Below, one piece after another: positions 8,785 through 54,452 of a DNA stretch of 55,659 bases (the stretch's first letter is position 1; each line of letters begins with the position of its first letter). Origin of the DNA: Sedimentisphaerales bacterium. GTDB taxonomy: Bacteria > Planctomycetota > Phycisphaerae > Sedimentisphaerales > SM23-30. The DNA is taken from assembly GCA_028281535.1 (NCBI GenBank), contig JANQJS010000067.1, positions 1 through 55,659 of the forward strand. The letters run 5' to 3'. Under the pieces are notes generated by a model. It saw nothing but the letters and a program-made list of their open reading frames with translations, did not search any database and was not told the DNA's origin. A program made the translations under genes and the position numbers.

Positions 8785-8822
8785 GTGGCAGCCTCAGTTC
8801 ACCCAAGGTGAAATTGGGCTGG
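8785..8822 (+). repeat. Copy A of a three-copy structured repeat (conserved ends, variable hairpin)
   Basis: The head GTGGCAGCCTCAG is followed by the hairpin TTCACC-CAA-GGTGAA and the tail ATTGGGCTGG. The same 13-base head occurs twice in the primase gene (53542-53578 and 53612-53649 reversed) with different hairpin sequences but intact pairing. This copy is intergenic, between the DUF1844 stop and the preferred sppA start. Confidence 0.7.
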
Positions 8823-40381: not shown

Positions 40382-40996
40382 TTAGCTACTTTGCTGGACT
40401 TTTTTGAATTTCGTCAGAAAAATGATGCTGCACAATGTCAGTAAGATAATTGTGGTGGGTTCTGGTGTGACTTGTGCAAAAGTGAATATGTCCAGACTAA
40501 ATGCATGGGAGTCCTTGAGTGAAAAACCTTGTGGGGCAGGAGTACGGTATGTGAATAAATCTAGCTTACGAATCTCTGAAAAGTTAAAAGTAGACTGATT
40601 TGCAATAAGATCAGCCGCCATCAAATTTGAACTGAATGTCAAAGTGTCTATATTGATATGTTTAGCCATAAAAGACAATAAATATTGAGTTTTTGGCGTT
40701 AAATTCCAATTGATAGACTCAGTAATATGTCCATGTATTATTGTCTCATGTAGCATGTTTTGGAGTTTTACGGGATTGTGGCGAAAGTGATTTGAAACAA
40801 CTATACCGGATTCCGGTTTGATTTTCTGATGCCAGCATATTTGCTCTTGGGAGGATTGGGCTTTTGTAAGATCAACCTGAATCAATCTTCGTGTTAGATT
40901 ACCTGAATCGACTACGATGGGGGATGCTTGTAATGACTGGTGGAGAATGATTGGTAAGAATAACGCTATGAACAATTTTATCATACGGGTTTTCAT
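40382..40996 (-). CDS. PEP-CTERM sorting-domain protein
   Basis: 204 residues with an N-terminal signal peptide (IKLFIALFLPIILHQSLQA). The middle part is a beta-rich, unrecognised domain. The C terminus TPEPTTIILLTLCSIIFL followed by KFKK is a PEP-CTERM tag: Pro-Glu-Pro, a membrane helix and a basic tail. Such tags are processed by an exosortase and are linked to exopolysaccharide-producing bacteria; no exosortase is in the window. It is monocistronic and separated from the pilin block by a long gap. Confidence 0.8.
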   Translation of the reverse strand: MKTRMIKLFIALFLPIILHQSLQASPIVVDSGNLTRRLIQVDLTKAQSSQEQICWHQKIKPESGIVVSNHFRHNPVKLQNMLHETIIHGHITESINWNLTPKTQYLLSFMAKHINIDTLTFSSNLMAADLIANQSTFNFSEIRKLDLFTYRTPAPQGFSLKDSHAFSLDIFTFAQVTPEPTTIILLTLCSIIFLTKFKKVQQSS

Positions 40997-51803: not shown

Positions 51804-54452
51804 TTAACTGTAATCTTCGAACTCTCGCTTTAGATCGTTGAATAATAATTTGGAAGGGGGTTGCCCTTGAACCTCAGGATGTGATAATTTGCTTTCATTG
51901 TTATCTGTTCGATTCGTTGTTGGTGAGTTGGGTTCCTGTTCACTTTTTTCTGGCTGACAGTATGACACTGACACTTTCCTCGATTCTGGGTTAGAATTGC
52001 TATTAGTGTCATAAAGAGTTGGAAATTTAATGATATTTGAGGAATTAGACTTTAACGTTAGTTTGAATGTTTTAATTTCTCGTCGTCCATTTTCTCGATC
52101 ATATTCCCATTCTCCAAGCCCTTGCCGGACAAGTATATTCAGGTCTTCTAAAGCTTGTTTTTTTGTGATATTTTGTCCTCGATAGTAATCACGTAATGAT
52201 ACTGAAGAACCATAACGCTTGACATTTTCAATAGTGCAACGTGTGCTTGAAAAATCATCTGTTTTGTCGATGACATTGTAAATTCGGAACGCTTCATAGC
52301 CAAACCAGCGAACCAATTTGATGGCAGAGTTTACACTTATATCATCGACCACTTCTTCACAAAGCAAACTTTTGTCTTTTGCTGCTAATCGTACACAATG
52401 CAGGATTAACGCCAGTCGACCAGCACATCCTTCAAGTTTTGACCAGAGAGCCGCCTCGTTACCTTCTAGAGTCATTTGAGCTTCATTATGTTGGTTATAA
52501 AATTCAATAAATTGGTTTGTCGCTTTTGTGCTTAAGGTTAAGTCGATAGGGCAATGTTGGCCTGTTTTTCTTGGATCAAAATCGAGTTGGTATAATTGTT
52601 GAAATAATCTGATAAGATCCTGTTGAACTTTTATATCGACCTCTTCTTTTTGCCATTGTTTAGGCGTTCGCGGAGGCATTGCCATAAGCAAACGAGCAGC
52701 CAAGCCATTTTCAAAGTATTCTTGCGTTAATGTTCGCTTTAAAATGGCTGGCTGTATCCCGCCAGTCAAATTAACCGCTGCTCGGGGCACGCTTGTCATA
52801 GGCTGATCGCCAGTTTTACGATCAACAATCAATAAAGATGCGTTATATAAACTCAACCAGTGCGAGACATCGCCACCTTTACCTGATTTGTATTGATTAA
52901 AGCTGCTGAGCCAGCCTGACAATTCATCGCGGCACAGCAGTAAACCTCTGGGGGAATTTTCCAGTAATACGGCCAGTGCTTCGATGGTCGTATCATTGCA
53001 TAAATATCGCTGACAAATCGGTTGTGTAGGTTTGGTCTGGTTTTTATTTTTGGAATTCTTCTGTAATTGTAGTTCTGTTTGATAAGCCTCTAATAATAAG
53101 CGAAAAGAATTAATCGCATCATTTTGCTTATCAAATATCGGTTTGAGAACAGCGTCCAATGCAGGTGATTTTGAGCTACCGCTTTCTCCAATGATAGCTG
53201 TCCAAAGAACAGCGGGCTCGTGCCAACCATCGCGAATCTGTAAACGTCTCGTATTGCCAATAGCGCTGGCTAATGAAGACAACATCGGTAATGCAACATA
53301 GGAGGGGTCGCATCCTATCGAGGTTGCTGTCTGGTTAACGAAATCATTTAATGGGTAAGGGAGCAGGTCTGTAGGGAATGCCTTGTAGGGCATAACCTCG
53401 TCAATGTCTAGGTTTTCATTATCTTGCGTTTGTAGGTCAGGCCCTGCCTGACAATGCCTTCCTCTATTTTCTATTTTACAATCTCCGTCACCATCAAAAC
53501 CGTCAGGCATGGCCTGACCTACCTGCTTATTTCCATGTTGGGTGGCAGCCTCAGCTTGACTTGTCGAGATGGGGATGGTGTCTTTTGCAGTCGTTTGATT
53601 TTCCATGTTCGCCATCCCCATTTCGCTTTCAGCGAACTGAGGCTGCCACGCTGGATGATTCGTGAGATCTTTGCCGACGAGGTTCTCTGCTTGATCGGCA
53701 AGTTGTAATAGATCAAAAACAGTATTGCCACTATCAAGCCAATCGGAGACATCACCTTTCTCCTTTAGGTCAGGTAAATGTAGAATTTTGAGTTCACTAG
53801 CAATTTCATGTAGGCTTTCTGCGACTTGTTTGGCATGTTCTCGACCAGGTTGGTCATTATCAGGTAAAATGACAATTCGATAACCTAATAATGGATAAAG
53901 ATCTGCAATCTTATCCCATTTACCGGCTCCACCGGAATTGCAGGTGGCATTAAATCCTTCTTTTAGCAGGCGATTGACATCTTTTTCACCTTCTGGAATG
54001 AAAATGTAATCTTTTACATTCGCTTCTTTGAGTTTTGGTAATTGGTATAAGATAGAGGTAACGCCTCTTAGGTGGTTTAGCCAACCGCTTTGTCCATCGG
54101 GTTGTCGTTGAAAGAATCGCTTATCTCCCATGCGGCAAACCTGATACATCAACTTGCCATCTTCATTAAGATAATTGTAGTAAGTGTCATGTGTCATACT
54201 GTCGGGAGTTTTTTTCTTTACTTGATTGGGATCAAACAAGTCAGACATGGATATACTTAGTGATCGGCAAATATCCTCCGTTTTACATCCTGCATGACAT
54301 TTCATTAAAATGCGATTATCGTTGCCAAGAGAGATGCTTAGACTTGGTTTTTTGTCATCATGACAAGGGCAGATAGCATACCATTGATTCTGACCGATTT
54401 GTTTAAAGTTGTGTAGTTTCTGACCGAGTTGTTGTAAGTGTTCGTTGTTCAT
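51804..54452 (-). CDS. Phage/plasmid-type primase-helicase protein (CHC2, Toprim, DUF3987)
   Basis: 882 residues. Residues 20-60 form a CHC2-like zinc finger (Cys28, Cys30, His31; Cys52, Cys56 in KCHAGC). A Toprim domain follows, with IFIPEGEKDVNRLL and the DND acidic site in IVILPDNDQPGREHA. After a low-complexity linker at about 268-340 comes DUF3987 with Walker A GESGSSKSPALDAVL, which is primase/helicase-like and typical of integrated elements and phages. The linker holds two in-frame repeat insertions (REP pair and structured repeats). No integrase is in the window; the tRNA-Arg next to the 3' end is a likely integration site. This is probably one end or a remnant of an element. Confidence 0.82.
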   Translation of the reverse strand: MNNEHLQQLGQKLHNFKQIGQNQWYAICPCHDDKKPSLSISLGNDNRILMKCHAGCKTEDICRSLSISMSDLFDPNQVKKKTPDSMTHDTYYNYLNEDGKLMYQVCRMGDKRFFQRQPDGQSGWLNHLRGVTSILYQLPKLKEANVKDYIFIPEGEKDVNRLLKEGFNATCNSGGAGKWDKIADLYPLLGYRIVILPDNDQPGREHAKQVAESLHEIASELKILHLPDLKEKGDVSDWLDSGNTVFDLLQLADQAENLVGKDLTNHPAWQPQFAESEMGMANMENQTTAKDTIPISTSQAEAATQHGNKQVGQAMPDGFDGDGDCKIENRGRHCQAGPDLQTQDNENLDIDEVMPYKAFPTDLLPYPLNDFVNQTATSIGCDPSYVALPMLSSLASAIGNTRRLQIRDGWHEPAVLWTAIIGESGSSKSPALDAVLKPIFDKQNDAINSFRLLLEAYQTELQLQKNSKNKNQTKPTQPICQRYLCNDTTIEALAVLLENSPRGLLLCRDELSGWLSSFNQYKSGKGGDVSHWLSLYNASLLIVDRKTGDQPMTSVPRAAVNLTGGIQPAILKRTLTQEYFENGLAARLLMAMPPRTPKQWQKEEVDIKVQQDLIRLFQQLYQLDFDPRKTGQHCPIDLTLSTKATNQFIEFYNQHNEAQMTLEGNEAALWSKLEGCAGRLALILHCVRLAAKDKSLLCEEVVDDISVNSAIKLVRWFGYEAFRIYNVIDKTDDFSSTRCTIENVKRYGSSVSLRDYYRGQNITKKQALEDLNILVRQGLGEWEYDRENGRREIKTFKLTLKSNSSNIIKFPTLYDTNSNSNPESRKVSVSYCQPEKSEQEPNSPTTNRTDNNESKLSHPEVQGQPPSKLLFNDLKREFEDYS
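51961..52013. repeat. ATGACA/TGACACTT motif copy 1 with inverted partner
   Basis: TATGACACTGACACTT at 51961-51976 and TTAGTGTCATA ending at 52013 face each other. The same bipartite motif occurs at 54181-54203 (reverse orientation) and at 54863-54915. The copy is inside the 3' end of the primase gene. Confidence 0.45.
53432..53522. repeat. BIME-like pair of GTAG-headed REP units inside the primase linker
   Basis: The left unit at 53432-53452 reads GTAG then a 7-bp hairpin GTCAGGC-CCT-GCCTGAC. The right unit at 53502-53522 is its reverse complement with one base changed (loop CAT, again headed by GTAG on the minus strand). The two face each other around 49 bases. GTAG next to a REP hairpin is the recognition mark of REP-associated tyrosine transposases (RAYT) in known systems. 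Together the units encode part of the primase linker without breaking the frame. No RAYT gene is in the window. Confidence 0.75.
53542..53578 (+). repeat. Copy B of the structured repeat
   Basis: Head GTGGCAGCCTCAG, then hairpin CTTGAC-TT-GTCGAG (one G-T pair), then tail ATGGGGATGG. It is inside the primase gene and faces copy C, 33 bases away. The hairpin differs from those of copies A and C but pairs equally well. Confidence 0.75.
53612..53649 (-). repeat. Copy C of the structured repeat, inverted to copy B
   Basis: On the minus strand: head GTGGCAGCCTCAG, hairpin TTCGCT-GAA-AGCGAA, tail ATGGGGATGG. Copies B and C face each other, forming an inverted pair of 108 bp like the REP pair beside them. 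Confidence 0.75.
54181..54203 (-). repeat. ATGACA/TGACACTT motif copy 2
   Basis: On the minus strand the sequence is GACAGTATGACACATGACACTTA, close to copy 1 with one extra base in the middle. It lies within the primase coding region, about 250 bases from the start codon. Confidence 0.4.

Follow-up and report, generated by a model that had tools for sequence, protein, structure and literature searches.

A primase/helicase-like gene with two repeat pairs

The DNA analysed here, referred to as the window, is a stretch of 55,659 nucleotides from the 4.44-Mb genome of a Sedimentisphaerales bacterium (G000). On its minus strand lies an ORF for an 882-aa protein, which holds two adjoining pairs of palindromic repeats, one of family A1 and one of family B, in frame. 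The features are as follows.

51804-54452, minus strand: 882-aa ORF, Toprim-DUF3987 primase/helicase-like, holding both repeat pairs in frame
53432-53452, plus strand: REP unit of family A1, with GTAG head, 7-bp stem and CCT loop
53453-53501, no strand: spacer of 49 nt between the two A1 units
53502-53522, minus strand: inverted REP unit of family A1, with CAT loop
53542-53578, plus strand: family-B palindromic unit, GTGGCAGCCTCAG-hairpin-ATGGGGATGG
53612-53649, minus strand: inverted family-B unit, partner of the unit at 53542-53578
8785-8822, plus strand: single family-B unit elsewhere in the window

In the 882-aa protein, a Toprim-like part (residues 154-231) scored just below the Pfam cut-off, homology to the primase part runs to about residues 255-263, and a DUF3987 helicase-like part occupies residues 381-726 (E=4.5e-64). 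Its full-length homologues are about 22-42% identical, and each of its two halves separately matches phage proteins that carry a DNA primase/helicase annotation. Integrase-like ORFs, read by eye, adjoin several homologues of the gene in related genomes, suggesting that it may be a replication gene of a mobile element. A search of viral contigs with this ORF retrieved no relatives; of the six peptide patterns used, two lay in the repeat-coded linker and no well-conserved motif was represented, so this negative result carries little weight. Elsewhere in the window, positions 40382-40996 of the minus strand encode a 204-aa protein that ends in a PEP-CTERM-like sorting signal (TPEPTTIILLTLCSIIFLTKFKK) and has no Pfam match.

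The family-B pair (53542-53649, 108 nt) adjoins the A1 pair, and the two pairs with the 19 nt between them make up 218 nt (53432-53649), encoding the 74 residues 268-341. Between the positions that sequence alignment equates with residues 255 and 352, the linker measures 96 residues here and 16-25 in four fused Toprim-DUF3987 homologues (from G115, G054, G018 and G050), an excess of 71-80 residues. When the 218 nt were shuffled by mononucleotide, the given frame was open with a probability of only 0.022, a figure that leaves aside that the A1 units are themselves free of stops in one frame; this low probability weakly suggests that selection on the gene preserved the open frame. Frame 0 of the A1 pair is open on both strands.

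Among the A units and the portion of B units examined, only those in the 882-aa ORF and in one transposase gene (L002, see below) lie well within a convincing gene as called by ORF length. Extragenic location is a typical trait of REPs, and the window pair, inside a gene, departs from it. The trait is not a defining one, however, as GTAG families described in the main text of Di Nocera et al. 2013 (PMC3733652) have intragenic members.

GTAG repeat families A1 and A2

The two A1 units of the window read GTAGGTCAGGC-CCT-GCCTGAC on the plus strand and GTAGGTCAGGC-CAT-GCCTGAC on the minus strand. Re-checking reproduced exactly the coordinates, the inverted orientation, the GTAG head, the GTCAGGC/GCCTGAC stem and the match at 20 of 21 bases that a preliminary description of this DNA had given. 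As in GTAG REPs, GTAG stands directly before the palindrome and the units fall within 20-50 nt. The same description had called the pair BIME-like, which holds insofar as it is a REP dimer of a dispersed family with GTAG outside; it is no ordinary extragenic BIME, being intragenic and in frame.

Within the window, four matches to GTAGGTCAGGC with at most one mismatch were found against 0.29 expected, and the two exact ones are the A1 pair itself. Genome-wide, the 11-mer with one mismatch was uninformative, giving 57 matches against 52 in the reversed control, and we therefore counted the full hairpin. The hairpin GTAGGTCAGGCNNNGCCTGAC with at most one mismatch occurs as 22 units in the genome and not once in the reversed-pattern control, so that the further copies anticipated earlier do exist, six more intact inverted pairs among them. 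These 22 units are few compared with the about six hundred REPs of E. coli K12 (PMC8266576). One exact match to GTAGGTCAGGC at G000:C20:206812 (L009) lacks the hairpin and was set aside as chance.

The A1 units sit at unrelated positions, singly or as inverted pairs, with spacers that differ by locus. All seven intact inverted pairs carry GTAG outside; six of them total 55-63 nt with spacers of 13-21 nt, whereas the window pair totals 91 nt with its spacer of 49 nt. Stems are near-constant while loops vary (CAT, CTT, CAA, CAC, CCT and TGT). A sibling GTAG type, A2, has a 9-bp stem, GTAGGCCGGGCAG-CCT-CTGCCCGGC and variants (the GTAGGCCGGGCAGCCTCTGCCCGGC type), and is present in at least six copies.

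Judged by ORF length, no convincing gene spans any of the other A1 loci; ORFs of 90-160 aa around other REP units were taken as spurious by the same measure, and at one locus (L190) a REP unit lies near the start of a 246-aa ORF. The A1 hairpin GTAGGTCAGGCNNNGCCTGAC was absent from 58 related genomes, which represent the same family and order but not the same genus. A literature search with the A1 unit sequence returned, judged by titles, only papers unrelated to REPs. Two further repeats were noticed near some units: a dispersed palindrome that reads GTCATTCCCGCGAAGGCGGGAATCCATG or nearly so is found no more than about 100 nt from the A1 unit at L005, L006, L014 and L026, and a CTCGCCAACCAAGCAGGCGACAACGGAG-like repeat occurs near L067, L196, L205 and L206.

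RAYT genes and their flanking repeats

A search of the genome with the Pfam Y1_Tnp profile found two genes, L001 and L002. The Y1-HuH TnpA_REP gene that had been predicted from the window pair is L002 on contig C34 (G000:C34), which encodes a 190-aa REP-associated tyrosine transposase (RAYT) scoring 178 bits against NF047646, where the cut-off is 80; it is the only RAYT gene of its type in the genome. The nearest solved structure is E. coli TnpA_REP (4ER8; E=1e-36 over residues 1-169), with which most of its length aligns. The two share the HuH motif, the tyrosine, a C-terminal Gly-Glu and GTAG heads on the associated repeats; H60, H62 and Y131 of L002 are invariant in an alignment of 17 RAYTs, and in E. 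coli TnpA_REP the C-terminal G160-E161 contacts the GTAG motif (PMC8266576). The units, as perfect palindromes with a 3-nt loop, resemble those of group 3 (e.g. S. maltophilia), whereas the L002 protein resembles the group 2 TnpA_REP of E. coli (PMC8266576).

L002 has A2 units on either side and a further one in frame within its ORF. No A1 unit flanks any RAYT in this genome. The expectation that the RAYT would be flanked by the window's own unit holds with a qualification: in this genome L002 has the sibling A2, and in other genomes A1-type units flank homologous RAYTs. Units of the window type (GTAGGTCAGGC-n3/4-GCCTGAC) were found at the Planctomycetota RAYT loci L107, L118, L121, L140 and L149, and on one side only at L126 (Planctomycetota) and L180 (Poribacteria); the RAYT of L107 is the best match to L002, at 46-48% identity. 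More broadly, a GTAG hairpin lies within 350 bp of the gene in 60 of 80 L002 relatives in other genomes, the hairpin density around these 80 being 2.09 per kb near the gene and 0.25 per kb further off, and at least five such loci carry an exact GTAGGTCAGGCnnnGCCTGAC. Judged from these flanks, the window unit therefore belongs to a REP type that accompanies the RAYT family of L002.

The A2 unit within L002 (L002:1595-1619, G000:C34:86774-86798) encodes about NCRAEAARPT and sits in a stretch of variable length ahead of a conserved WQPRFWEH. Among the matches listed, only 2 of the 80 relatives have an intragenic GTAG hairpin, and both look unrelated to it.

Family B is likewise dispersed. The window pair is equal in length to, and 78% identical with, a pair at G000:C25:97115-97222, and this genome has 52 matches to the 13-mer GTGGCAGCCTCAG with one mismatch, against one in the control; related genomes of the order hold 216 (G042) and 56 (G053) family-B heads. 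Many of the heads in G042 form inverted pairs, with about 100 nt from one head to the other. In 36 units gathered via their flanking sequences rather than their stems, the inner stem covaries strongly, with T-A/C-G at position 1, A-T/G-C at position 4 and C-G/A-T/T-A at position 5.

Three family-B units flank the second Y1 gene, L001 (L001:1178-1910, G000:C66). L001 is probably a frameshifted pseudogene, since its C-terminal part seems, by eye, to continue in another frame. A longer relative with a 200-aa frame, 51% identical, is present in G042 (L273), and its flanks show, by eye, hairpins with similar ends (GTGGCA-stem-GATGG) and a different stem. With L001 apparently frameshifted and B units still numerous, family B may here be a relic.

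The main text of Di Nocera et al. (PMC3733652) also describes RAYT-like genes with inverted repeats of non-GTAG type on their flanks. Like the TIRYT-associated inverted repeats presented there, family B consists of non-GTAG palindromes that flank a RAYT-like gene and occur as singles and dimers; unlike them, its consensus ATGGGGATGG does not evidently contain, by eye, the TIRYT motif GGGGWSAS given in that text.

Probable origin of the two pairs

Taken together, the window pair is very probably a REP dimer of the BIME/REPIN type, a miniature and non-autonomous element relying on a Y1-HuH RAYT for its copying, that entered the linker between primase and helicase. A RAYT akin to E. coli TnpA_REP would have copied the A1 dimer into this flexible linker, where it would have persisted since it lengthened the frame by whole codons and brought in no stop; the second, unrelated RAYT-associated palindrome pair, family B, would have entered the same linker likewise. 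E. coli TnpA_REP binds REP DNA in single-stranded form, depends on GTAG and cuts at CT next to the hairpin (PMC8266576). By analogy, the RAYT here would recognise single-stranded DNA by its GTAG and hairpin and cut close to them, and single-stranded cleavage of REPs by L002 is predicted on the same ground. We infer that transposition, via L002 or a lost sister, moved the A1 pair into the gene. Its protein presumably still works, and the extra residues would be tolerated in the linker at the insertion point, as proposed for other intragenic REP dimers in the main text of PMC3733652. Because the 49-nt spacer is unlike those of the sister pairs, the A1 pair possibly arose by two separate single insertions, or its spacer may have changed later.

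Within this reading, the possibility that L002 serves A2 only and that the A1 units were spread by an A1-specific RAYT, since lost or missing from the 67-contig assembly, has a probability that we put slightly below even. It would account for the exclusively A2 flanks of L002, and A1-type units accompany the distinct RAYT of L107; loss of the REPtron from strains is, moreover, on record in the main text of PMC3733652. Against it, neither a third RAYT nor a remnant was found in this assembly (completeness 99.4%) with Pfam Y1_Tnp and L107 RAYT queries. Furthermore, E. coli MG1655 has one REPtron alongside three REP types (y, z1 and z2) with different stems (PMC8266576), which makes one enzyme for both A1 and A2 plausible.

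Alternatively, the repeats might have lain in an intergenic spacer between separate Toprim and DUF3987 genes, and a later fusion of the two genes would have taken this spacer into the coding sequence. The best relatives of the 882-aa protein do differ between its N- and C-terminal parts, and in the relative G044 the Toprim and DUF3987 parts are adjacent separate ORFs. Fused full-length homologues, however, occur in the same order (G115, G139, G054, G018 and G050), and since the four that were measured have short linkers, it is simpler to start from a fused ancestor; we regard the later fusion as improbable. Stable hairpins are able to influence transcripts, and the palindromes could in principle form an immobile local regulatory or terminator element. 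Near-identical units, many as inverted pairs, are found at many unrelated loci, are confined to one species among those searched and have counterparts of the same type flanking RAYTs elsewhere, and the window hairpins stand mid-gene, all of which makes such a role scarcely credible.

The case agrees with what is known of GTAG REPs. As set out in the main text of Di Nocera et al. (PMC3733652), GTAG families form head-to-head dimers, mostly with spacers of 20-100 bp, and intragenic dimers encode 20-30 residues and are often found in genes for DNA synthesis and repair. The GTAG end, the short perfect palindrome, the inverted dimers with GTAG outside, the presence of a RAYT and a dimer within a gene of DNA-replication type are all shared with the case described here. 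Rickettsia palindromic elements (RPE) also lie in frame within protein genes, but RPE-4 and RPE-6 have CGTC ends rather than the GTAG of the window units, and CGTC repeats, according to the same text, have no known dedicated transposase, whereas a RAYT family goes with the window units. The features of this locus thus fit the frame of that main text except for the linker shared by two families, a neat but minor variation.

The less ordinary part of the case is that two RAYT-associated families share one linker of roughly 95 codons in a DNA-replication gene whose reading frame stays open. No instance of a GTAG dimer next to a dimer from another family that lacks GTAG was found in the main text of PMC3733652. 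That two unrelated RAYT systems target the same linker, with the REP-coded linker kept as useful or with replication genes of mobile elements being preferred REP targets, seems to us very unlikely.

These findings leave the understanding of REPs unchanged. They provide a clear case, at sequence level, in which mobile REP dimers have become coding sequence and the same genome reveals the transposase family associated with each dimer. They also add a RAYT/REP set that pairs group-2-like enzymes with perfect short palindromes, and this system could be used to ask whether a single RAYT can act on REPs whose stems differ.
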